NCBI GenBank assembly: GCA_017431685.1
Contig: JAFRKO010000048.1
Coordinates: 1 to 58,388, forward strand
DNA from: Mogibacterium sp.
GTDB taxonomy: Bacteria > Bacillota > Clostridia > Peptostreptococcales > Anaerovoracaceae
DNA: 58,388 nucleotides
Reading direction: 5' to 3'
This document shows positions 8,257 to 32,367 of the stretch, piece after piece (positions within the stretch are counted from its first letter, which is position 1; each line of letters starts with the position of its first letter). The position numbers were made by a program, and so were the translations under genes. A model generated the notes under the pieces. That model searched no databases and was not told the DNA's origin. It saw nothing but the letters and a program-made list of their open reading frames with translations.

Positions 8257-8712
8257 ATGGGTCTTAAAGAACAACTGATGCAGGACTATAAGGACGCGAT
8301 GAAGAATGCGGACGCTGTAAAGAAAAACACAGTAAACATGGTAAGGGCTGCCATCAAGCAGTATGAAGTTGACCAGAGAGTAACTCTCGAAGACGATGCA
8401 GACGTCGTAAAGATCATCAAGAAACAGGTCAAGATGAGAGCAGATGCTCTTTCTGACTTTGTAAAGGCCGGCAGAGATGATATGGTTGAAGGCTACAAAA
8501 AGGAGATCGAAATACTCAAGGCTTATCTGCCTGAAGAAATGGGTGAGGAAGAAATCAGGGCCAAGGTAAAAGAAATTGCTGAGAAACTAGGCCTTGAAGC
8601 CAATATGAAGAATATGGGTGTTCTGATGAAGAGCACAATGGCAGAACTCAAGGACAAGGCTGACGGTTCTGCTGTAAACAAAGCTGTAAAGGAATTTCTC
8701 AGCGGTAAGTAA
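8257..8712 (+). CDS. yqeY: GatB/YqeY domain-containing protein
   Basis: 151 residues, a complete YqeY-type protein: an N-terminal helical domain (GLKEQLMQDYKDAMKNADA...) and the C-terminal tRNA-binding-like tail also present at the end of GatB (KNMGVLMKSTMAELKDKADG, then VNKAVKEFL). YqeY proteins are thought to bind tRNA or aid aminoacyl-tRNA quality control; their exact role is not settled. AAAGGAGAT precedes the start. It lies between rpsU and phoH and is 3 bases from the latter, consistent with an operon. Confidence 0.92.
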   Translation: MGLKEQLMQDYKDAMKNADAVKKNTVNMVRAAIKQYEVDQRVTLEDDADVVKIIKKQVKMRADALSDFVKAGRDDMVEGYKKEIEILKAYLPEEMGEEEIRAKVKEIAEKLGLEANMKNMGVLMKSTMAELKDKADGSAVNKAVKEFLSGK

Positions 8713-17214: not shown

Positions 17215-17245
17215 AAATAGGGGCTTTTTTAATAAAGGGTCTGAG

Positions 17246-17380
17246 TCCTCCCGAGAGAGAACCGGACAACAACGTTTAGGGCATTTTATGTCCTGGCGTT
17301 GAGCTGGTCGCTGAAGAGGCAAGTTCAGTAAAGCAGCAGATTACTGGATGAAACTTTCAAGCAAAAGGATCGGGTCGGAT
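17246..17380 (+). ncRNA. Glycine riboswitch aptamer (single)
   Basis: The conserved glycine-aptamer blocks are present in order: a CGAGAGAGAACCGG segment, a variable P3a hairpin, CGCTGAAGAGGCAAG, a variable P3b hairpin, then AAACTTTCAAGCAAAAGGAT. The outer P1 helix pairs TCCTCCCG (17246-17253) with CGGGTCGGA (17371-17379). Only one aptamer is evident, not the tandem form. It precedes grdX-grdE-grdB, whose products consume glycine, so an on-switch that activates the operon when glycine is abundant is expected (inference by analogy with gcvT). Confidence 0.85.
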
Positions 17381-17415
17381 ACCTATTTCTGGATCATTAA
17401 TAATTATGATGAAAC

Positions 17416-17460
17416 AGGGAGAATGCTGTTTGCATTTATTATGCAAAGCATTCTCCCTAT
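17416..17460 (+). terminator. Hairpin of the riboswitch expression platform
   Basis: 12-base arms AGGGAGAATGCT (17416-17427) and AGCATTCTCCCT (17447-17458), extended inside by TTGCAT/ATGCAA. It ends 22 bases before the grdX start and is followed by the weak T-rich ATCTTATT. This is likely the switchable terminator. Confidence 0.6.
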
Positions 17461-17480
17461 CTTATTCCCGGAGAAGATAG

Positions 17481-17876
17481 ATGAAGTACATTATCCTTAC
17501 AAACAATCCGCTTGCAGAAGATGAATTCAAAGAGACACATGATGTTGAATTTGTTGACGGTAAGCTTATCGATGTGCTCATAAAGGCCAGAGATATGGTC
17601 AATTGCGGTGCTGTACTTCTGAATCATCCGCTTTATGGAAGCGTTAAGCCAAACGAAACGCCTTACAGGTCGCTTCTGATAAAGTGTCCGGCAGAACCGG
17701 CTGACGGGAGCTTTCCGGCAGCTGATCCGGAGTCTGTAAGGCTGATAGGAAATGCGGTAAACGCTTTCAGAAAATTTATCGTTAAGAAGGAGATCACCAA
17801 TCCATCTCTTCTGGAAGATTTTCAGGTCGTTGACCTTAGCCTTCTGAAGAGTGCCGTGGCAGCGGCTGACCGGTGA
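17481..17876 (+). CDS. grdX: GrdX family protein
   Basis: 131 residues, small cytosolic protein found at the head of glycine reductase operons; its function is not established. The N-terminus MKYIILTNNPLAEDEF and the central GAVLLNHPLYGSVKPNETPY are recognisable for the family. It directly follows the riboswitch and precedes grdE by 102 bases, a gap that contains a GC-rich hairpin. Its place as first gene suggests a role in maturation or regulation of the complex (inference). Confidence 0.85.
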   Translation: MKYIILTNNPLAEDEFKETHDVEFVDGKLIDVLIKARDMVNCGAVLLNHPLYGSVKPNETPYRSLLIKCPAEPADGSFPAADPESVRLIGNAVNAFRKFIVKKEITNPSLLEDFQVVDLSLLKSAVAAADR

Positions 17877-17931: not shown

Positions 17932-17978
17932 CGGCAAGTAATGCAACTCTCATTATACACCAAAGGAGGCGATCAAAA

Positions 17979-19259
17979 ATGAGATTGGAAATCGGAAAAA
18001 TCAATATTACTGATATCCGGTTTGCGGAAGAATCAAAGGTCGAAGGCGGAGTCCTCTACGTAAACGCAGAAGATTTTAAGCCGGTAGTCCTTGAGGATGA
18101 AAAAATCAAAGACGTATACTTCGATATTGCCAAGCCGGGTGAGTCCGTAAGGATCACACCTGTCAAGGACGTTATTGAACCTCGCGTAAAGGTAGAAGGC
18201 AAGGGCGGAGTATTCCCTGGCTGGATATCCAAGGTAGACACAGTAGGATCCGGCAAGACTCTCGCACTTAAGGGAATGGCACTTGTAACAGCAGGTAAGA
18301 TCGTAGGATTCCAGGAAGGTGTCATCGACATGACAGGCCCTGGTGCAGACTACACACCGTTCTCGAAGACTCTGAACCTGGTAATGGTTTGCGAGCCAGT
18401 AGAAGGTCTCAAGCAGCATGACTATGAGGCTGCTGTACGTAAAGCAGGTTTCCGCGTAGCAGCTAAGATCGGTGAGCTCGCAAGAGGCATCGAGCCTGAT
18501 GAAACATGCGTATATGAGACATGCGGCATCAAGGAAGGCATTGAGAAATATCCTGATCTCCCAAGAGTGGGCTATGTATCAATGCTTCAGACTCAGGGAC
18601 TTCTGCACGACACATACGTATATGGCGTTGACGCTAAGCAGATCATTCCAACCATCATGAGCCCTACAGAGGCTATGGACGGAGCTATCGTTTCCGGTAA
18701 CTGCGTATCTGCCTGCGACAAGAACCCTACATACATACATCAGAACAACCCTGTAATTGAGGATCTCTTCGCACAGCATGGCAAGACTATCAACTTTGTT
18801 TGCCAGATCATCACAAACGAGAACGTGTATCTTGCAGACAAGGAAAGATCTTCCAATATGACAGCTAAGCTCTGCCGCATGCTCGACCTCGACGGCATCA
18901 TTCTGACTCAGGAAGGTTTCGGTAACCCTGATACAGACCTGATCATGAACTGCAAGAAGATCGAAGCAGAAGGTGTAAAGACTGTAATCGTAACAGACGA
19001 GTATGCAGGAAGAGACGGAAAGTCCCAGTCCCTCGCAGACGCTGACGTTGCTGCAGACGCAGTAGTTACAGGCGGAAATGCCAACGAAGTCATAATCCTG
19101 CCTAAGCTTGACAAGGTGATCGGTACACTCGATTACATCAACAAGATCGCAGGAGCCAGCGACAAGACGCTGAGAGAAGACGGAACTCTCGAAGTTGAGA
19201 TTCAGGTCATCACTGCAGCTACAAACGAGATGGGCTTCGGAACACTGAGTGCAAGATAG
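17979..19259 (+). CDS. grdE: Glycine reductase component B, proprotein of alpha/beta subunits
   Basis: 426 residues. Part of substrate-specific protein B, which binds glycine and passes the carboxymethyl group to GrdA. The proprotein is known to split at an Asn-Cys bond to give two subunits of ~22-25 kDa and a carbonyl group on the new N-terminus. The site is visible: MDGAIVSGN | CVSACDKNP with the cysteine at residue 242, the position known from Eubacterium acidaminophilum. The presence of this site and the riboswitch upstream support glycine specificity. AAAGGAGG precedes the ATG. It is 24 bases from grdB. Confidence 0.95.
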   Translation: MRLEIGKINITDIRFAEESKVEGGVLYVNAEDFKPVVLEDEKIKDVYFDIAKPGESVRITPVKDVIEPRVKVEGKGGVFPGWISKVDTVGSGKTLALKGMALVTAGKIVGFQEGVIDMTGPGADYTPFSKTLNLVMVCEPVEGLKQHDYEAAVRKAGFRVAAKIGELARGIEPDETCVYETCGIKEGIEKYPDLPRVGYVSMLQTQGLLHDTYVYGVDAKQIIPTIMSPTEAMDGAIVSGNCVSACDKNPTYIHQNNPVIEDLFAQHGKTINFVCQIITNENVYLADKERSSNMTAKLCRMLDLDGIILTQEGFGNPDTDLIMNCKKIEAEGVKTVIVTDEYAGRDGKSQSLADADVAADAVVTGGNANEVIILPKLDKVIGTLDYINKIAGASDKTLREDGTLEVEIQVITAATNEMGFGTLSAR

Positions 19260-19283
19260 GACAGGGAAAGGAGGATTAAAAAA

Positions 19284-20597
19284 ATGGCTAAGATCAAAGT
19301 AGTTCACTACATCAACCAGTTCTTTGCCGGAATCGGCGGAGAAGAAAAGGCCGACATCCCTGCTGAACTTCACAAGGGTGAGGTCATCGGACCTGGAATG
19401 GCATTCAACACAGGATTCAAGGACGAAGCTGAGATCATCGCTACTATCGTATGCGGAGACTCTTACTTCAATGAAAATATAGAGGCAGTCAAGGCTGAGA
19501 TCCTCGGATGGGTCAAGGATCTTGCACCTGATCTGTTCATCGCAGGCCCTGCATTCAATGCAGGACGTTACGGAGTAGCCTGCGGAACTATCGCAGCTGC
19601 AGTACAGGAAGAACTCGGCATCAAGTCCATGACAGGAATGTACGTTGAGAACCCTGGCGCAGATATGTATAAGGACAAAACATACATCCTTCAGACAAAG
19701 GACAGCGCTGCAGGAATGAGAGATGCTGTTAAGAAGATGACAGCATTTGCCCTCAAGTATGCAAAGGGAGAGAAGATCGGTGCTTCCTGCCAGGATGGTT
19801 ACATGAACCAGGGTGTCCGCGTCAACTTCTTCGAGAAGGAGAGAGGCTCCAAGAGAGCTGTAGACATGCTTCTTAAGAAACTCGCTGACGAGCCTTTCAC
19901 AACAGAGTATCCAATGCCTGACTTCGACAGAGTAGAACCAAATCCTGCAGTTAAGGATATGGCGCACGCAAAGATCGCTCTGGTAACTTCGGGCGGTATC
20001 GTAGTAAAGGGCAACCCGGATCACATCGAGAGCTCCAGCGCTTCGAGATTCGGTGAGTACAGCCTTGAAGGCGTATATGATCTTGATGAGAACACATTCG
20101 AGACAGCTCATGGCGGTTATGACCCTGTTTATGCAAACCAGGATGCAGACAGAGTACTGCCTGTAGACGTGCTGCGCGATCTCGAGAAGGAAGGCGTGAT
20201 CGGCAAACTGCACGAAAAATACTATGCAACAGTAGGTAACGGAACTTCCGTAGCAAATGCTAAGGGATTCGGCGCAGAGATCGGTAAGCGTCTGGTGGCT
20301 GACGGTGTAGACGCAGTTATCCTCACCTCCACGTGAGGAACCTGCACTCGTTGCGGCGCAACGATGGTAAAAGAGCTCGAAAGAGCAGGACTCCCTGTAG
20401 TCCATGTCTGCACAGTAACACCTATTTCGCTGACAGTAGGCGCAAACAGAATCGTACCTGCTATCGCTATTCCGCATCCTCTGGGCAACCCTGCTCTTGA
20501 TAAGGATGAGGAGAAGGCTCTCCGCCGCAAGCTCGTTCTGAAGGCTCTCAAGGCACTTCAGACAGAGGTTGACGGACAGAAGGTATTCGAAGACTAA
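19284..20597 (+). CDS. grdB: Glycine reductase component B gamma subunit, selenoprotein
   Basis: 437 residues including selenocysteine encoded by the in-frame TGA at 20334-20336 (residue ~351). The motif is TST-U-GTCTRCGATM, the U-x2-C-x2-C active site that attacks the glycine Schiff base carbon. The frame continues after the TGA with family-conserved sequence (VGANRIVPAIAIPHPLG) to TAA at 20597, so TGA is not a stop. A SECIS-like hairpin follows the TGA. AAAGGAGG ribosome-binding site. It is paired with grdE and paralogous to grdH at 24610. Confidence 0.95.
20334..20368 (+). promoter_or_regulatory. SECIS element in grdB
   Basis: The UGA (20334-20336) is followed 12 bases later by the hairpin CGTTGC-GGC-GCAACG (20349-20363). 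The stretch 20327-20368 is identical, base for base, to 25650-25691 in grdH, including synonymous positions, while the flanks differ. That points to RNA-level selection for selenocysteine insertion. Confidence 0.8.
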
Positions 20598-23262: not shown

Positions 23263-24591
23263 ATGAAACTCAAGATCGGAAACATCCCAGTCAAGGATGT
23301 AGTTCTGGGTAGTCAGGACAGCTTCGAGAATGGTGTTCTTACCATTAACAAGCAGGCTGCTATCGACTACCTCATGGAGCTTGATGATCATATTACAAGC
23401 CTCGATATCGTAATCGCTCATCCTGGCGATGACACAAGAATCGTGCCTGTAATCGAGACCATCGAACCGAGATGCCGTGTTGACGGACGCACACTCTTTC
23501 CTGGCGTAACTGACGAAATCGTTCCTGCAGGAGATGGAGAGCTCAAGGCTCTTAAAGGAATCTGCGTTACGGTTGTCGGCGGCACCTGGGGATCATTCGG
23601 AGACGGCGTCATCGACATGGGCGGCGAAGGTGCAAAGCACACTTACTGGTCCAAGCTCATCAACGTCTGCCTTGTAGGTGAGACTGATGAAGAATTTGAA
23701 CGTTATGAACAGCAGAAAATGAATCACGCTCTGAGATGGGCAGGCCACAGATTCGCGGAATACCTCGGCAAGATCGCCAAGGGTATAGCGGCAGAAGAAT
23801 TCGAAGAATATGAATTCGAGCCGGTTGCAGACAGAGCAAAGAAGAACAACGGACTGCCTAACGTAGCACTCGTTATGCAGCCACAGTCCCAGATGGAGGC
23901 TCTCGGATATAACGATCTCTGGTATGGCTGGGACATGAACAAGTATCTACCTACATTTGTAAGTCCTACAGAAGTGCTCGACGGCGCAATGATTTCCGGA
24001 TCTTTCATGCCGGCTTCATCAAAGTGGTCAACTTACGAAATGCAGAACTTCCCTACAATAAAGGAACTCTTCGCAGAAGATGGCAAGAGCCTGAACTTTG
24101 TCGGTGTTATCATGTCGATGCTCAACGTAGCTCTTGACCAGAAGGAAAGAGCTGCTGTCATGGTAAGAAACATGGCGCTCAACCTGGGCGTTGATTACGC
24201 GATCGTAACAGAAGAAGGTTACGGTAACCCTGATGCTGACTATGTACGCTGCCAGGTCATCCTCGAGGATGCAGGCATCCCTGTAGTAGGTATCTCCAAT
24301 GAGTGTACAGGACGTGACGGATTCTCACAGCCGCTCGTAACACTCGACTCGAAGCTGAACGCACTCGTTTCTTCGGGTAATGTATCTGAACTTTCAGATC
24401 TTCCGGCGTGCGCAACTGTTATTGGATGCCTCGAGGCAATGAACAGAGACGGAATGTCGGGCAGCTGGGGCTATGATGAGAATCTCGGCAAATCCGCAAG
24501 AGATGACGGGTCCATCATCATGGAAGACAACAACTGGTTCTGCGGAGACCACATCAGCGGATTCTCAGTCAAGACGATGATCGAATTCTAG
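23263..24591 (+). CDS. grdI: Betaine reductase component B subunit, GrdE/GrdI-type, unprocessed
   Basis: 442 residues, paralog of GrdE over its whole length (same PVIETIEPRCRVDG, GVIDMGGEGAKHTYWSK, SPTEVLDGAMISG and TEEGYGNPDADY blocks). At the GrdE cleavage site the Asn-Cys is replaced by Ser-Phe (ISGSFMPASSKW, residues ~245-256), so it cannot form the carbonyl subunit by the same reaction. Betaine, a quaternary amine, cannot form a Schiff base, and I recall the betaine protein B having only two large subunits. With the adjacent BCCT carrier this favours betaine over sarcosine (GrdG). AAAGGAG precedes the ATG. Confidence 0.82.
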   Translation: MKLKIGNIPVKDVVLGSQDSFENGVLTINKQAAIDYLMELDDHITSLDIVIAHPGDDTRIVPVIETIEPRCRVDGRTLFPGVTDEIVPAGDGELKALKGICVTVVGGTWGSFGDGVIDMGGEGAKHTYWSKLINVCLVGETDEEFERYEQQKMNHALRWAGHRFAEYLGKIAKGIAAEEFEEYEFEPVADRAKKNNGLPNVALVMQPQSQMEALGYNDLWYGWDMNKYLPTFVSPTEVLDGAMISGSFMPASSKWSTYEMQNFPTIKELFAEDGKSLNFVGVIMSMLNVALDQKERAAVMVRNMALNLGVDYAIVTEEGYGNPDADYVRCQVILEDAGIPVVGISNECTGRDGFSQPLVTLDSKLNALVSSGNVSELSDLPACATVIGCLEAMNRDGMSGSWGYDENLGKSARDDGSIIMEDNNWFCGDHISGFSVKTMIEF

Positions 24592-24609: not shown

Positions 24610-25926
24610 ATGAAGAAAGTTATTTGTTACGTCAACCAGTTCTTCGGCGGTATCGGCGGCGAAGATAAGGCTGATCAGGAACCTTACATTGTTGAGGGAG
24701 TTGTAGGCCCAACCATGGCTATCAACGCCGCACTCAAGGATGCAGAGGTCACACACACCGTAGTATGCGGCGATAACTTCATGGGTTCCAACACTGAAGA
24801 GGCGCTCTCCAGAATCCTTGGATTCCTCGAAGGCAAAGAGATGGATCTCTTTATCGCTGGTCCTGCTTTCCAGGCCGGACGTTACGGCGTAGCTTGCGGA
24901 AACGTTTGCAAAGCCGTTAAAGAAAAATTCGGAGTTCCTGTTCTCACATCAATGAACGGTGAGAATCCGGGAGCTGACATGTTCAAGAAGGACGTTATCA
25001 TCTTCAAGGGCGGCACAGGCGCTGTAAAGATGAGACAGGATGTTAAAGTCCTCACTAACTTCGCTAACAGACTTCTTGCAGGTGAGCCTAACAGAGGCTG
25101 CGAGGCTGAAGGCTACTTCGAGAGAGGTTGCAGACATGAGCTCTTCCTTGAGGACATCAGAGAGAACACAGCTGCTTACCGTGGCGTTCAGATGCTCAAG
25201 AAGAAAATGGCAGGCGAGCCATACCAGACAGAGCTCATCATCCCAGAGAAGGATCTCGTTCCTATCGCGGCTCCAGTCGAGCTTAAGGATGCAGTAGTTG
25301 CTCTCGTTACAACATCCGGATGCGTACCTGTAGAGAACCCTGACAGAATCCAGTCGGCTTCTGCTACAAGATGGGGCAGATACAGCATCAAGGATATGGA
25401 CAGACTCGAAGCTGGCGTATTCAAGACGATCCACGCCGGTTATGACCCTGCAGCAGCTAATGCAGACCCTAACGTACTCGTTCCGCTCGATGCTGTAAGA
25501 GCATATGAGAAGGAAGGAAAGTTCAAGAGACTGCATGACTACTTCTACACAACAGTAGGTACAGGTACAACAGAAGCCGAAGCTACAAGAATGGCTGAGG
25601 AAATGATCCCGTATCTCCGCGAGGATGGCGTTAACGCAATTATCCTCGGCTCCACGTGAGGAACCTGCACTCGTTGCGGCGCAACGATGGTTAAGGCTCT
25701 TGAGAGAGCAGGATTCAATGTTGTACATATGTGCAACCTCATCCCTGTATCGATGACAGTCGGAGCTAACAGAATCGTTCCTACTATCTCGATCCCATAT
25801 CCTCTCGGTGACCCTAATACACCGAAGGAAGAGCAGTGGAAACTGCGTTACCACAGAGTTGGTGTGGCACTCGATGCTATTGCTACAGACGTTACAGAGC
25901 AGACAGTATTCAAGGTAAGAATCTGA
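24610..25926 (+). CDS. grdH: Betaine reductase component B selenoprotein subunit
   Basis: 438 residues with selenocysteine at the in-frame TGA 25657-25659 (residue ~350): GST-U-GTCTRCGATM. The frame continues with VGANRIVPTISIPYPLG to TGA at 25926. It is paralogous to grdB and pairs with grdI, 18 bases upstream, to form the substrate-specific protein B. Its product should catalyse selenium attack on the betaine methylene carbon and transfer to GrdA. Sarcosine reductase GrdF is the alternative; the lack of a processing site in grdI and the BCCT gene favour betaine. GGAAGGGAGG ribosome-binding site. Confidence 0.9.
25657..25691 (+). promoter_or_regulatory. SECIS element in grdH
   Basis: UGA at 25657-25659, hairpin CGTTGC-GGC-GCAACG at 25672-25686. 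The window 25650-25691 is identical to that of grdB (20327-20368). Confidence 0.8.
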
Positions 25927-25944: not shown

Positions 25945-27432
25945 ATGAAAGAGAAAAAGCTCAACTTAGTTTTCATAATCTCTGTTGTGCTGACTCTTGC
26001 CATATGTCTGTGGGGCATCGTGCTTCCGGACTCGTTTGGTAAGGCAGCTACAGGAAGCATGAACTTTCTGACAACAGATTTTGGCTGGTTCTATGCAGTT
26101 GCAATGACAGCTTTCGTGGTGTTCTGCATCTGGATCGGGTTCTTCAGCAAGTACAAGAATGTTCGCCTGGGACCTGATGATTCAACACCTGATTACAGCG
26201 ACCTTACATGGTTCGCGATGCTGTTCTCGGCCGGCATGGGCGTCGGGCTGGTATTCTGGGGAGTTGCAGAACCTCTGAATTACTACCTGGCACCGATAGG
26301 CGGGCTTGAGGCTGCTTCTGATTCAGCCATGAGGATGGCTTTCACCAAGTCATTCCTGCACTGGGGAATCCACCCGTGGGCTAATTACTCAGTGCTCGCT
26401 CTCGCGCTTGCTTATATGCAGTTCCGCAAGGGCAAACCGGCTCTCGTAAGTTCGGTATTTATTCCTCTCATCGGCGAAGAGAGGACCAACGGATGGATCG
26501 GCAAGCTGATCGACATTCTGGCTATCTTCGCTACAGCCGGAGGAGTAGCGACATCTCTGGGTCTTGGAGTACTGCAGATCAATTCAGGAATGAATTTCCT
26601 TGCAGGCGTTCCGGAGACTCACACAGTTCAGCTCATCCTGATCGTAGTTCTCGGTCTTATATACACTGCGACTGCGGTTATGGGAGTAGACAAGGGTATC
26701 AGCAAAGTCTGTGACCTCAATATCAGAATCGCGATAGGCGTTATGATCCTCCTGTTCATTGTCGGACCGACTGTTCCGATTCTGAACAACCTTACAGAAG
26801 GCCTTGGTGCTTATATCAGCGGAATCGTTAAGAACAGTTTCGAAGTAGGTGCTTTTGGAGATGCTGACTGGTACAAGTCCTGGACTACATTCTACTGGGC
26901 ATGGTGGATCGCATGGGCACCATTCACAGGCTCCTTCATCGCGAGAATATCGAGAGGCAGAACAATCGGACAGTTTGTAAAGGGAGTAATGTTTATTCCG
27001 GCCGGATTCTCAGTAATCTGGTTTGCTATCTACGGAACTCTCGGAATGAGGTGCGATATGGCTATCATCAAAGAAGCAGTCGCATCGACTTCCACAGCAC
27101 TGTTCCTGGTACTCAAAGAGTACCCGCTCGGAATGATCATATCCGTAGTCATGTTCGTTCTGATCTGCACATTCTTCATAACATCTGCCAATTCGGCAAC
27201 ATATGTTCTGGGAATGTACAGTGAAAAAGGAACACTCGATCCTACGAATAAGACCAAGATCGTATGGGGTGTACTCATGGCTGCACTCGCGGCAGCAATG
27301 ATGCTCGGAAGCGGCAACGGTCTGAGCATGCTGCAGACTCTGTCCATCGTAGCAGCCTTCCCATTTGCTTTCATCATGGTAGCTGCCATGGTAGCACTGG
27401 TAAAGGCTCTTAAGAAGGAAAGAGAAGAGTAA
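25945..27432 (+). CDS. BCCT family betaine/carnitine/choline transporter
   Basis: 495 residues, about 12 membrane helices. The family signature is present: GMGVGLVFWGVAEPLNYY, FHWGIHPWANY-like (SFLHWGIHPWANYSVLALAL), and the substrate-site segment FYWAWWIAWAPFTGSFIARI followed by SRGRTIGQF. It lacks the long hydrophilic C-terminal osmosensor domain of BetP, ending soon after the last helix with KALKKEREE. This points to nutrient uptake, not osmoregulation. Its place 18 bases after grdH makes glycine betaine the likely substrate for reduction. AAGCTCAAC and a weak site precede the ATG at 25945. Confidence 0.92.
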   Translation: MKEKKLNLVFIISVVLTLAICLWGIVLPDSFGKAATGSMNFLTTDFGWFYAVAMTAFVVFCIWIGFFSKYKNVRLGPDDSTPDYSDLTWFAMLFSAGMGVGLVFWGVAEPLNYYLAPIGGLEAASDSAMRMAFTKSFLHWGIHPWANYSVLALALAYMQFRKGKPALVSSVFIPLIGEERTNGWIGKLIDILAIFATAGGVATSLGLGVLQINSGMNFLAGVPETHTVQLILIVVLGLIYTATAVMGVDKGISKVCDLNIRIAIGVMILLFIVGPTVPILNNLTEGLGAYISGIVKNSFEVGAFGDADWYKSWTTFYWAWWIAWAPFTGSFIARISRGRTIGQFVKGVMFIPAGFSVIWFAIYGTLGMRCDMAIIKEAVASTSTALFLVLKEYPLGMIISVVMFVLICTFFITSANSATYVLGMYSEKGTLDPTNKTKIVWGVLMAALAAAMMLGSGNGLSMLQTLSIVAAFPFAFIMVAAMVALVKALKKEREE

Positions 27433-27569: not shown

Positions 27570-28001
27570 ATGGCAATTCTGAATGGAAAGAAAGTTATCG
27601 TCATCGGAGACCGTGATGGTATTCCGGGTCCGGCGATAGCCGAATGTGCCAAGTCAGCAGGAGCCGATGTCGTATTTTTCTCGACTGAGTGCTTCGTCTG
27701 AACGGCTGCCGGTGCCATGGATCTGGAGAATCAGAAGAGAGTTAAAGAGTTCTACGATGAGTACGGTGTTGATAACCTGGTAGTACTCGTAGGCGCTGCA
27801 GAAGGAGAGGCAGGCGGCCTCGCTGCAGAGACAGTAGCTCTCGGAGATCCTACATTTGCAGGGTGTCTGGCAGGGGTTTCGTTGAAACTCCCATGTTACC
27901 ATATATGCGAACCTGAGATCAAAGCAGAGATCGATGAAGCAGTATATGATGAGCAGATCAGCATGATGGACATGGTGCTGGCTGTTGACGACATTTTCTA
28001 A
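27570..28001 (+). CDS. grdA: Glycine/betaine reductase selenoprotein A, C-terminally shortened
   Basis: 143 residues. Common protein A, which carries the carboxymethyl group on selenocysteine and ends as a selenide-sulfide re-reduced by thioredoxin. TGA at 27699-27701 encodes Sec44 in [18 protein letters not shown], at the position known for GrdA. Typical GrdA proteins have ~158 residues. Here TAA at 27999 follows VDDIF, but the same frame continues GTG ATG ACT ... with the family-like codons for MTAIREQVAEA to TAA at 28038-28040. So the gene has either lost its last 13 codons by a nonsense change, is read through, or carries a sequence error. GGAAAGGAG ribosome-binding site. Confidence 0.93.
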
Positions 28002-28040
28002 GTGATGACTGCTATTCGTGAACAGGTCGCCGAAGCATAA
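28002..28040 (+). pseudogene. Untranslated remnant of the GrdA C-terminus
   Basis: In frame with grdA after its TAA, the codons read VMTAIREQVAEA and then TAA. The IREQ core matches the end of usual GrdA proteins (I recall MKSIREQFGKF in a clostridial homolog). This supports a recent point change at 27999-28001. Confidence 0.6.
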
Positions 28041-28144: not shown

Positions 28145-29098
28145 ATGAAAACATATGATATCGTAATAATCGGTGGTGGTCCTGCAGGTCTTGCAGCTGG
28201 ACTTTATTCAGGCAGAGCAAAGATGGACACACTGATTATTGAAAAGCAGAAGTACGGCGGACAGATCGTTATTACGGATGAGCTTGAGAACTATCCGGGA
28301 TCGATCGAGGGCGAAACAGGCCCATCACTTATCGCACGTATGGTCGCACAGTGCGATAAGTTCGGATGCGAAAGAGTTGAAGATACTATTACTGACGTTG
28401 AACTCGAAGGTGATGTTAAGGTAATAAAAGGATTAAAGGGTGAATACCAGGCTAAGGCAGTTATCATTACCGGAGGTGCTACACACACCACAATCGGCTG
28501 CCCGGGCGAGAAGGAATTCACAGGTAAGGGCGTATCCTACTGCGCTACATGCGACGCTGCGTTCTTCGAAGACTTCGAAGTATACGTAGTCGGCGGAGGA
28601 GATGCTGCAGTAGAAGAGGCTATGTACCTCACAAAGTTTGCCCGCAAGGTCACACTGATCCACAGAAGAGACGCTCTCAGAGCGGCAAGATCCATCCAGG
28701 AGAAGGCATTTGCCAATGAGAAGATGGAGTTCATGTGGAACACAGTAATCGAAGAGATCAAGGGAGACGGACTCGTTCAGAGCATGGTAGTCAAGGACAC
28801 CAAGACAGGCGAGACCAGAGAGATCTTCGCTGATGAAGAAGACGGAACATTCGGAATCTTCGTATTTATCGGATTCAAGCCGCTGTCATCGATCTACGAA
28901 GGAAAGATCGATATGGAAAGAGGCTACATCTTAACTGATGATGACATGCACACAAATATCCCTGGCGTATTCGCTGCAGGAGATATCCGCAAGAAGAGTC
29001 TGAGACAGGTAGTCACAGCAGCTGCAGATGGCGCTATTGCTGCTACACAGGCAGGTAAGTACATCGAAGAGCTCGCTGGAACAGCATATAAATACTAA
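28145..29098 (+). CDS. trxB: Thioredoxin reductase (glycine-reductase associated)
   Basis: 317 residues. FAD enzyme that reduces thioredoxin with NADPH. The FAD-binding GGGPAGLAAGLYSGR is at the N-terminus, the redox disulfide CATC at 133-136, the NAD(P)-binding VVGGGDAAVEEA in the middle, and the FAD-binding GVFAAGDIR near the end. I use the ATG at 28145, preceded by GGAGGTGAG; the longer frame from 28073 runs through the hairpin and is unlikely. It supplies electrons through TrxA to GrdA. Confidence 0.95.
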   Translation: MKTYDIVIIGGGPAGLAAGLYSGRAKMDTLIIEKQKYGGQIVITDELENYPGSIEGETGPSLIARMVAQCDKFGCERVEDTITDVELEGDVKVIKGLKGEYQAKAVIITGGATHTTIGCPGEKEFTGKGVSYCATCDAAFFEDFEVYVVGGGDAAVEEAMYLTKFARKVTLIHRRDALRAARSIQEKAFANEKMEFMWNTVIEEIKGDGLVQSMVVKDTKTGETREIFADEEDGTFGIFVFIGFKPLSSIYEGKIDMERGYILTDDDMHTNIPGVFAAGDIRKKSLRQVVTAAADGAIAATQAGKYIEELAGTAYKY

Positions 29099-29141: not shown

Positions 29142-29459
29142 ATGTTAGAAGTTGATAAGAAAACTTTTGAAGAAGAGGTTCTTCAGGCAGAAGGTTATGT
29201 AGTAGTAGATTTCTACGGAGACGGATGCGTACCATGCGCAGCTCTCATGCCACATGTACACGCACTCGCTGACGAGTATGGCGACAAGCTCAAATTCGCT
29301 GCACTCAACACTTCGAAGGCAAGAAGAGTTGCTATCGGCCAGAAAGTAATGGGACTTCCTGTTATCGCTGTTTACAAGGATGGCGAGAAGGTAGAAGAAC
29401 TCGTTAAGGACGATGCAACACCGGAAGCTGTTAAGGCTATGGTAGAGAAGTACATATAG
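29142..29459 (+). CDS. trxA: Thioredoxin (glycine-reductase type)
   Basis: 105 residues. The active site is GCVPC (Cys29, Cys32) in place of the usual WCGPC, which is characteristic of thioredoxins in grd operons. The cis-proline loop LPVIAVY is present. The start is the ATG at 29142, 9 bases after AAGGAGG; the ATG at 29133 abuts that site and is too close. It reduces the selenide-sulfide of GrdA after each turnover. Confidence 0.94.
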   Translation: MLEVDKKTFEEEVLQAEGYVVVDFYGDGCVPCAALMPHVHALADEYGDKLKFAALNTSKARRVAIGQKVMGLPVIAVYKDGEKVEELVKDDATPEAVKAMVEKYI

Positions 29460-29469
29460 GAGAATAATC

Positions 29470-31014
29470 ATGGGCGAATATGCAGTACTCGGAGGAGCTA
29501 GCTATACACTGGCATACACACCTGACATGGTAATCCATGACGGAGCTACTCAGGTAACAGAGCGTGTTGTAAATCCTGACGGAGAATATCTGAAAGAGCT
29601 CCCGAATCATCTGAGAAGTTTTGAAGACGCAGTCAGATATGCACCTAACCAGGCATACATCGGCAACCTCAACAATGAGGAACTCAAGGCAATCGAGTTC
29701 CCTTGGTATGACAAGCCGACTGATATCACTGAGAGAACAGGAAAATACGGCGAGATCATGCCTGAGGACGAGTTTTACGGACTCATGCAGATCTGCGATA
29801 CATTTGATCTGGTAGAACTGGAAGCAGGCTTTGCTGCTTCTGTCAAGGAGAAACTCGCTGCTCACGGTATGTTCACTGACGAGCAGGTAGCTGTACTCGA
29901 CAAGAATGCAAACTTCACAGAGGAAGGACTTGCAGCAGTAGTCGAGGATGGAGGCTGCGGACTTTACTTCGATGGAAAGCTCGTAGGAGTTATCAAAAAG
30001 GCACACGATGTTGACGTTAACCTTTCAGCACATGTCATGCTCGAGAACATCGCCAGCAAGGCTACAAGCGTGCTTTCACTTCTCCATCTTATCAGAGTCA
30101 CAGGCATCGACCCTGCAGAAGTTGACTATGTAATCGACTGCGCAGAGGAAGCATGCGGTGACATGAACCAGAGAGGCGGCGGCAACTTTGCTAAGGCTGC
30201 AGCCGAGATCGCCGGTCTTACGAATGCAACAGGATCCGACACAAGAGGATTCTGCGCAGGTCCTGCACACGCACTGCTGAACGCAGCATCGCTGGTTAAA
30301 GCAGGAACTTTCAAGAACGTTGTTGTGACCGCCGGTGGTTGTACCGCTAAGCTCGGAATGAACGGCAAGAGCCATGTTGAGAAGGGCCTTCCGGTCCTCG
30401 AAGACTGCCTTGCAGGATTCTCAGTCCTTATTCGTGAGGACAACGGCACTGATCCGGTCATCCGTACGGATATCGTCGGCAGACATACCGTAGGTACAGG
30501 CTCATCACCACAGGCGGTCATCAGTTCCCTCGTTACTGATCCGCTTGACAGAGCAGGACTCAAGATCACTGATGTTGACAAGTTCGCACCTGAGATGCAG
30601 AACCCTGATATCACAAAGCCTGCAGGCGCAGGAGATGTACCTGAAGCTAACTTCAAGATGATCGCTGCTCTCGGAGTTAAGAGAGGCGATATCGAGAAGA
30701 AAGAGCTCGCATCATTCATCGTTGAGCACGGAATGAAGGGCTGGGCTCCTACTCAGGGCCACATTCCTTCAGGAGTTCCTTTCATGGGACCTTGCAGAGA
30801 TATGATGCTTGATGGCCAGATCGAAAGAGCAATGGTCATCGGTAAGGGAAGTCTCTTCCTTGGAAGAATGACAAACCTCTTCGACGGCGTATCTTTCGTG
30901 ATCGAAGCTAATAAGGGACAGGGCGAAGGCGGCTCCGGAGTTTCCGAAGAGGAAGTCAGAGGCCTGATCGCAAGCGCACTGAAGGACTTCGCAGCAGGGC
31001 TCCTGGCAGAGTAA
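29470..31014 (+). CDS. grdC: Glycine/sarcosine/betaine reductase component C beta subunit
   Basis: 514 residues. With GrdD it converts the carboxymethyl-selenoether on GrdA to an acetyl thioester and releases acetyl phosphate. The fold resembles beta-ketoacyl synthase III (FabH); blocks such as GSDTRGFCAGPAHALLNAA (as GSDTRGFCAGPAH) and VVTAGGCTAKLGMNGKSHVEKG are characteristic of GrdC. It starts 10 bases after trxA with AGGAG. It is common to the glycine and betaine pathways. Confidence 0.95.
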   Translation: MGEYAVLGGASYTLAYTPDMVIHDGATQVTERVVNPDGEYLKELPNHLRSFEDAVRYAPNQAYIGNLNNEELKAIEFPWYDKPTDITERTGKYGEIMPEDEFYGLMQICDTFDLVELEAGFAASVKEKLAAHGMFTDEQVAVLDKNANFTEEGLAAVVEDGGCGLYFDGKLVGVIKKAHDVDVNLSAHVMLENIASKATSVLSLLHLIRVTGIDPAEVDYVIDCAEEACGDMNQRGGGNFAKAAAEIAGLTNATGSDTRGFCAGPAHALLNAASLVKAGTFKNVVVTAGGCTAKLGMNGKSHVEKGLPVLEDCLAGFSVLIREDNGTDPVIRTDIVGRHTVGTGSSPQAVISSLVTDPLDRAGLKITDVDKFAPEMQNPDITKPAGAGDVPEANFKMIAALGVKRGDIEKKELASFIVEHGMKGWAPTQGHIPSGVPFMGPCRDMMLDGQIERAMVIGKGSLFLGRMTNLFDGVSFVIEANKGQGEGGSGVSEEEVRGLIASALKDFAAGLLAE

Positions 31015-31025
31015 AGGAGGGCGAA

Positions 31026-32183
31026 ATGGCTCAGAATATACAGAAAATGATCGCTGAGACCTTCCTTGAAATGGCACAGGGCATTGAAAGCGGAAGCTAC
31101 GGCAAGCGTCCTAAGATCGCACTTACCGGAATGGGAAGTGAGCATGGTGAAGAGAACTCGATGGCAGCAGCTGTTATGGCTGCAAAAGAAGGCATCGACG
31201 TTTACTACATCGGCACACTTGAGGCTGAAGGCGTTACAACTGTAAAAGTTGCTGACGACGAAGAAGGACACAAGAAGATGGAAGAGCTGCTTGAAAACGG
31301 CGCTGTTGATGCAGCCGTAACAATGCACTATCCGTTCCCTATCGGAGTGTCCACAGTCGGAAGAGTAATCACACCTGCAAAGGGCAAGGAAATGTTCATT
31401 GCCAACACAACAGGTACTTCCAGCGCTGACAGGATCGAAGGAATGATCAAGAATGCCGTTTACGGCATCATCGCTGCCAAGGCATGCGGAGTTGCTGATC
31501 CAAGTGTCGGTATTCTCAATGTAGACGGAGCAAGACAGACAGAGAAGGCACTTAAGGAACTCGCAGACGGCGGTTATCCGATCAGATTTGCAGAATCTAC
31601 AAGAGCTGACGGCGGATGTGTAATGAGAGGAAACGACCTTCTTCAGGGAGCACCTGACATCATGGTCACAGATTCTCTCACAGGAAACGTACTCGTCAAG
31701 ATGATGTCTGCTTTCCAGACAGGCGGAAGCTTCGAAGCAACAGGCTACGGATACGGTCCGGGAATCGGCGAAGGTTATGACAGACTGGTCATGATCATTT
31801 CAAGAGCATCCGGCGCACCGGTCATCGCAGGAGCTCTGCGTTATGCAGCACAGCTCGTGAGAGGCAAGGTGTTCGAAGTTGCAGCAAAGGAATTTGCAGC
31901 AGCAAAGAAAGCCGGCCTTGATAACATCCTCAAAGCACGCAAGGCAGCAGCAAAACCTGCAGCTGCAGCTGAAGAGGAAGTAAAGGCTCCACCTGCTGAG
32001 ATAGTTACAGCTCAGATCCCGGGAATCGAGGTCATGGACCTTGAGGACGGCGTACAGGCACTCTGGAAGCAGGGAATCTACGCTGAAAGCGGCATGGGAT
32101 GCACAGGACCTATCATCCGTGTATCGGATGCTAATCTCGACAAGGCGAGAGAGATACTTACAGCAGAAGGATATATCGGGTAA
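31026..32183 (+). CDS. grdD: Glycine/sarcosine/betaine reductase component C alpha subunit
   Basis: 385 residues. PlsX-like subunit that carries out phosphorolysis of the acetyl thioester to acetyl phosphate. N-terminal KIALTGMGSEHGEENSMAAA, TTGTSSADRIEGMIKNAVYG and GNVLVKMMSAFQTGG belong to the PlsX-like core. A C-terminal extension ends with ESGMGCTGPIIRV; its cysteine is residue 359, the residue I recall as carrying the acetyl group in Eubacterium acidaminophilum. An Ala-rich linker (residues ~310-330) separates the two. AAAGGAGG ribosome-binding site, 11 bases after grdC. Confidence 0.95.
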   Translation: MAQNIQKMIAETFLEMAQGIESGSYGKRPKIALTGMGSEHGEENSMAAAVMAAKEGIDVYYIGTLEAEGVTTVKVADDEEGHKKMEELLENGAVDAAVTMHYPFPIGVSTVGRVITPAKGKEMFIANTTGTSSADRIEGMIKNAVYGIIAAKACGVADPSVGILNVDGARQTEKALKELADGGYPIRFAESTRADGGCVMRGNDLLQGAPDIMVTDSLTGNVLVKMMSAFQTGGSFEATGYGYGPGIGEGYDRLVMIISRASGAPVIAGALRYAAQLVRGKVFEVAAKEFAAAKKAGLDNILKARKAAAKPAAAAEEEVKAPPAEIVTAQIPGIEVMDLEDGVQALWKQGIYAESGMGCTGPIIRVSDANLDKAREILTAEGYIG

Positions 32184-32269: not shown

Positions 32270-32367
32270 GGGGGTAGATAGGTGCTGGTGTGCCTCGCGG
32301 TCTTCAAAACCGTTTGCAGGGGGTTAGCAGCCTCCCGGGTGGGTTCGATTCCCACGTACTCCCGCCA
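32270..32367 (+). tRNA. selC: tRNA-Sec (anticodon UCA)
   Basis: 98 bases including an encoded CCA. Bacterial tRNA-Sec architecture is visible: a long acceptor stem starting GGGGGTAG and ending GTACTCCCG-CCA, a 6-pair D stem (AGGTGC/GTGCCT) with a 4-base loop, the anticodon loop CTTCAAA with TCA at 32304-32306, a long variable arm (GGGGG...CCTCC), and the T arm GTGGG-TTCGATT-CCCAC. It reads UGA and so decodes the three selenoprotein genes upstream. Its position between grdD and nfnA suggests cotranscription with the reductase genes. Confidence 0.95.

Follow-up and report, generated by a model that had tools for sequence, protein, structure and literature searches.

The grdA reading frame and its extra stop codon

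Selenoprotein A of glycine/sarcosine/betaine reductase is encoded with one in-frame stop codon, the TGA read as selenocysteine. The gene described here carries a second one close to its 3' end, and the question is whether this stop belongs to the organism or to its assembly. The window analysed is the whole stretch of 58,388 nucleotides of contig JAFRKO010000048.1 from Mogibacterium sp. As it would be annotated, grdA occupies 27570..28001 of the + strand, starts with ATG at 27570-27572, matches Pfam PF04723 and encodes 143 residues. The TGA at 27699..27701 (+) is the predicted selenocysteine codon 44 and lies in the motif CFVUTA, which is common to relatives. The initial annotation had the gene end after VDDIF at the TAA at 27999-28001, and the reading frame confirmed this end and the length of 143 residues; the TAA is codon 144 of the + strand frame. 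It had also pointed to further codons with the usual GrdA ending, and these are indeed there: the frame continues through 12 sense codons (VMTAIREQVAEA; 28002..28040, +) up to a second TAA at 28038-28040, the frame from ATG to second TAA thus covering 27570-28040. The last nine of its sense codons have the same bases as in three congeners (L004-L006).

The 143-residue product alone matches PF04723 with 238.6 bits (E 2.6e-71, cut-off 22) over profile positions 1-139 of 147. In a genome-wide search, the same profile runs across the TAA, aligning 147 of its 147 positions with one TGA and one TAA inside. The C-terminal segment EM..IR of GrdA, incomplete in the open reading frame, is encoded past the TAA with E145 changed. 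Since this conserved end is encoded solely in the zero frame after the stop, no frameshift is needed, and we rejected a frameshift in place of read-through.

Genomic context and selenocysteine machinery

The window has the surroundings of known GrdA operons: two component-B pairs, component-C genes, the thioredoxin system trxA/trxB and selenocysteine machinery including a tRNA-Sec gene. The first component-B pair (17973..20597, PF09338 / PF07355) consists of a grdE-type gene (17973-19259, +) and a grdB-type selenoprotein gene (19284-20597, +), whose sole in-frame stop is the selenocysteine TGA. A glycine riboswitch aptamer was found upstream of it, at 17242-17382. The second pair, matched by the same two families, is formed by grdI (23263-24591, +) and grdH (24610 to about 25929, +; selenocysteine TGA at 25657-25659); a further TGA near the end of grdH may be its true stop. 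This pair probably belongs to a betaine reductase, judging from the adjoining gene for a BCCT-family transporter (25945..27432, +; PF02028, 587.8 bits). Rfam SECIS_4 elements lie right after the selenocysteine codons of both grdB-type genes, at 20337-20374 and 25660-25697, unlike grdA, where none reached the gathering threshold. A third, partial match to the GRDB profile in the same genome (G000:C73:7974-8396, 51.5 bits, profile positions 202-346) is perhaps another selenoprotein-B relative.

Downstream of grdA, trxB (28145-29098, +) and trxA (29142-29459, +) are open. They are followed by two open genes at 29470-31014 and 31026-32183 (both +), which, from operon order, we take to be grdC and grdD; the Pfam matches in these positions are DUF5940 and FA_synthesis. 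The sole tRNA gene found within the window is that of tRNA-Sec (32270..32363, +; Rfam 68.6 bits), with anticodon TCA, which reads UGA and not UAA. The gene selB, located elsewhere in the genome, is open (372.4 bits). The BCCT gene and the grd genes other than grdA are open as well, interrupted only by the TGA codons in the two grdB-type genes.

GrdA in related genomes

In the genus, a grdA match was obtained in 19 of 47 genomes, including the present one; the 28 genomes without a match are in many cases incomplete. Among these 24 matches, 14 are full-length, the window copy being one of them. All 13 other full-length copies have a single TGA as their sole internal stop; among the 10 partial copies, neither TAA nor TAG occurs. 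A family sample of 247 genomes, which overlaps with the genus sample, gave a grdA match in 52 genomes and 50 full-length copies. One TGA is present in 48 of these, two TGA in the copy of G220, and a TGA plus a TAA in the window. A TAA at codon 144 thus occurs in none of the 13 other full-length copies of the genus and in none of the 49 others of the family sample.

In the G220 copy (L130, G220:C41:1-1500), the second in-frame TGA stands at a codon that specifies glycine in the three relatives compared. It resembles the window in that a single odd stop interrupts an otherwise normal grdA. It differs in that one codon is odd with no patch of differences noticed around it, the tail is intact, and the odd stop is a TGA in a gene that uses selenocysteine.

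We also compared the window protein with 93 other GrdA rows, made up of 80 loci and the 13 genus copies; they represent 83 distinct proteins, and some genomes are in both sets. The 80 loci are the best 80 of at least 296 confirmed ones, from at least 592 pattern stretches obtained by scanning genome contigs. Among these matches listed, lengths range from 152 to 159 residues; those of L077, L104 and L116 are slightly short as they were counted from an internal match start, and the length of 152 is one so counted. Most relatives among the matches listed have 153-157 residues, 156 being commonest, so that the usual length of about 158 given in the initial annotation is slightly high. None of the 93 rows ends near residue 143, and aligning the grdA relatives did not show them all ending at the position of the window TAA, the outcome that the initial annotation had named as a refutation.

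Residues 1-143 of the window protein are 86-97% identical to those of six congeners. The five nearest relatives among the matches listed come from metagenome assemblies named Mogibacterium sp. (sheep duodenum) or uncultured Clostridiales. The RUG labels among them stand for rumen. The source bacterium is probably gut-dwelling. In two congeners, G008 (L016, L020, L023) and G014 (L018, L021, L024), fragments of grdA sit at the ends of several contigs; their coding ends are near-identical but their downstream flanks differ, which suggests that these species have two or more near-identical grdA copies. A search of a plasmid collection returned five distant grdA-like records, of 60-80% identity.

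A patch of clustered nonsynonymous differences

Comparing grdA codon by codon with 13 congeners, we found that up to codon 133 its differences from the closest ones are mostly synonymous. The stop lies in a patch at 27971..28009 (+) where the window departs from near relatives by six purine-to-pyrimidine differences, all nonsynonymous: A to C three times, G to T twice and A to T once, giving E134D, D138A, C143F, E144stop, E145V and N147T. Near relatives are here 11 of the 13 congeners, two more distant ones (L002 and L014) being left out. At five of the six sites all 11 agree on another base; at the remaining one, 27997, the window base is also present in one congener (L012). Over the whole of grdA, the window stands alone against 11 of 11 relatives at six sites, the sixth being a synonymous one at 27713; the concentration of five of these six in 39 nt gave p = 0.0011 in a permutation test. 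The single-base nonsense change envisaged in the initial annotation therefore does not stand as such, the TAA being one of six clustered differences. A real change is still conceivable, but as a stop accompanied by five adjacent nonsynonymous changes.

Three of the affected residues are nearly invariant. Among the matches listed, all 93 rows have E at residues 134 and 145, and 91 have D at residue 138 (the other 2 have N), while residues 143, 144 and 147 are variable. Of the C-terminal residues, E145 and R150 occur in all 93 rows, M146 in 92 and I149 in 91. A real stop that is partly read through, whether by means of a suppressor tRNA or through near-cognate decoding, would still yield some full-length GrdA, and the open frame beyond it, with nine codons base-identical to three congeners, speaks for this. 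Even so, the protein would carry E134D, D138A and E145V at near-invariant positions. The stop is absent from every other copy examined among the matches listed, TAA terminates 20 of the 32 window reading frames picked as likely genes, and the one tRNA gene found in the window reads UGA. We thus found no support for the read-through proposed initially and regard it as highly improbable.

To place the patch in its surroundings, we considered codons whose amino acid is identical in all aligned relatives, with at least four of them. Twelve genes of the region contain 3242 such codons, 26 of which are changed in the window only. Three of these changes are in grdA, among 123 invariant codons; all lie from codon 134 on, the codons before the patch having no window-only change at any invariant residue. 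Three such changes within 42 nt occur in grdA only; pairs are present in grdE, grdI, grdH and the BCCT gene. At the level of bases, at least four relatives agree at 8262 sites of the 12 genes, and the window differs alone at 175, of which 43 are nonsynonymous. The grdA patch, with five of five nonsynonymous in 39 nt, has the highest nonsynonymous count among the 12 genes. Dense clusters exist elsewhere too. In grdI, seven differences fall within 39 nt (23763-23799), four of them nonsynonymous and of mixed types, as judged on four relatives only; the dense stretch of window-only differences there extends over 23757-23826. In the BCCT gene, 39 nt starting at 26310 hold seven, most of them synonymous, and eight in 45 nt are found from 22287 and from 22296, outside the 12 compared genes. 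Clustering alone is therefore not unique to grdA. The spectrum was compared post hoc, with the patch already seen, and on few changes: of the 38 nonsynonymous window-only differences that the 12 genes have outside the patch, 8 are A>C or G>T and 10 go from purine to pyrimidine, while A>C plus G>T make up 43 of all 270 window-only sites, patch included. At the sequence level, the patch is distinctive in being wholly nonsynonymous and one-directional and in striking three residues invariant across the family.

These clusters bear on a second reading, in which grdA was genuinely broken in the sequenced strain not long ago, by a localised multi-base mutation that created the TAA with five missense changes. 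The dense window-only clusters elsewhere in the operon, such as that in grdI, are in its favour. Relaxed selection, however, would scatter changes gene-wide, synonymous ones included, while all six lie within 39 nt and are nonsynonymous; nothing else is broken in the operon or in the selenocysteine machinery examined. The absence of a grdA match in 28 of 47 genus genomes, many of them incomplete, indicates that the system can be lost and makes a true loss biologically plausible. Weighing both sides, including the structural and genomic points below, we consider a real breakage unlikely but worth keeping in view.

Predicted structure of the truncated protein

AlphaFold2 predicted the full-length protein of a congener (L047, 32-row alignment) with a mean pLDDT of 90.0 and a pTM of 0.87, with a helix at 139-155, whereas the 143-residue window protein, modelled with the same rows, reached 74.0 and 0.73; the two queries differ in sequence as well as in length. 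Weak parts of the shorter model lie also far from the cut, at 45-50 and 81-98. The stretch lost past the stop is most of the confidently predicted C-terminal helix, and these models suggest that this helix belongs to the core of the GrdA fold. No convincing GrdA structure was found in the PDB: a search by sequence gave seven weak matches, judged to be chance (best E 0.013), and a search by fold gave no match at E <= 0.001.

The weaker predicted fold fits a real breakage, in which selenoprotein A would lose most of its C-terminal helix and glycine and betaine reductase would be off or weak. It argues against the idea that the 143-residue protein is a working short form. Such a form would have kept selenocysteine 44 and an N-terminal part well preserved relative to six congeners. 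It would, though, be shorter than any of the 93 other rows listed, the shortest of which have 152-153 residues, it would lack C-terminal residues conserved in 91-93 of them, and its predicted confidence is clearly lower even at residues 81-98. Tolerance of a shorter protein, also suggested in the initial annotation, is in our estimate very improbable. We give equally little credence to a lineage in which patch and stop are real and the reductases work with a selenoprotein A that is short or partly produced by read-through. Were it true, translation of one selenoprotein mRNA would bypass in-frame stop codons of two different kinds.

Copy number, possible templates and assembly quality

The assembly has 2.74 Mb in 74 contigs, with 94.45% completeness and 4.85% contamination. 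The second grdA that the initial annotation proposed to look for was not found in it by profile, by a degenerate pattern of the 3' end or by blastn, which returned 14 other matches of 15-26 bases each; as the assembly is 94.45% complete, a copy may lie in the missing part. A broken gene with no intact copy found beside it is compatible with real loss, as is the 58-kb contig, which passes through grdA unbroken.

A templated origin of the patch, by gene conversion or template switch, was rejected: blastn found no source in the genome, and the window offers no convincing one, its best matches (21/26 and 23/33) being slightly higher than those of two relatives' control sequences (19/26 and 22/33). 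This lack of a copying template also weakens the case for a real mutation. A diversity-generating retroelement is argued against by two of the six changes being at G and by no second copy having been found.

Matches to ABC_tran do not support a generally poor assembly: all 49 in this genome are free of internal stops, and so are all 45 and all 38 of those in two congeners. We also compared the window from 250 to 32665 with a relative (G019), using reading frames of at least 130 codons from two of its stretches (L034 and L035) and matches of at least 55% identity. Over 7463 aligned residues, inspection revealed no other interrupted gene. Five aligned segments with stops were listed. In the gene from about 8257, the stops lie solely in an upstream leader, where no RNA family was found. 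The other four segments, which lie on the minus strand, were judged non-coding: one is at 17360-17494, and the remaining three overlap plus-strand genes wholly or in part, grdA being one of these genes.

A local consensus error as the probable explanation

Of the options raised in the initial annotation, a sequencing or assembly error is the best supported, given a dense, one-directional patch in an otherwise intact operon. We rank first, with a probability of about 0.6, a local Illumina-type error that produced both the patch and the extra TAA. A stretch of some 40 bases of wrong consensus would contain the TAA, which would be absent from the organism. It may have been a low-depth stretch built on the poor-quality part of one or a few Illumina reads in the + direction, a single poor read entering the contig where the assembler retained rare k-mers between solid ones. 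In that case the organism itself would have a normal gene for full-length selenoprotein A, whose product serves both reductases. We infer short-read assembly, low local depth and read tails as the cause.

The error patterns described for Illumina reads resemble the patch, consisting of substitutions only, dense and in one direction, with A/C and G/T dominant (PMC3334598, PMC4381044); they were described for reads, and that of the window is deduced from the assembled consensus. Five of the six differences in the patch are such dense, one-directional A/C or G/T swaps. One HiSeq study (PMC3334598) reports miscalls that cluster regionally, are often strand-specific and consist mostly of A/C (29.2%) and G/T (26.8%). 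In one MiSeq data set, A to C made up 66-85% of the errors at A, and G to T 40-45% of those at G, in the last 50 bases of reads (PMC4381044). Contrary to this spectrum, A to C was among the rarest errors in the own data of another Illumina study, which states that others found it commonest (PMC6053417). A review states that MEGAHIT retains a rare k-mer if it is flanked within its read by solid k-mers on both sides (PMC7299287). Our literature search found no papers on stop codons in metagenome assemblies and, for grdA, papers of a general kind.

A consensus error accounts for the density of the patch, its single direction, its A/C and G/T bias and its disregard of conserved residues. Against it is the exceptional local dip in depth that six wrong bases within a 58-kb contig require. 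We set it at about 0.6, with real loss as the unlikely but serious alternative, because the rest of the assembly looks clean, other dense clusters exist and a loss of grdA is plausible.

Significance

By its profile match and selenocysteine 44 motif, the window gene is a member of the GrdA family (PF04723). What sets it apart from the other copies examined is the combination of a TAA at codon 144 with amino-acid differences at five flanking positions. A short, one-directional patch at family-invariant residues would be a useful error flag for draft genomes. If the breakage is real, the loss of an energy pathway would have been caught at a very early stage. If, as we favour, the patch is an error, automatic annotation would miscall the assembly's single identified selenoprotein A as broken, and the glycine/betaine reductase pathway of this bacterium might be scored as lost.
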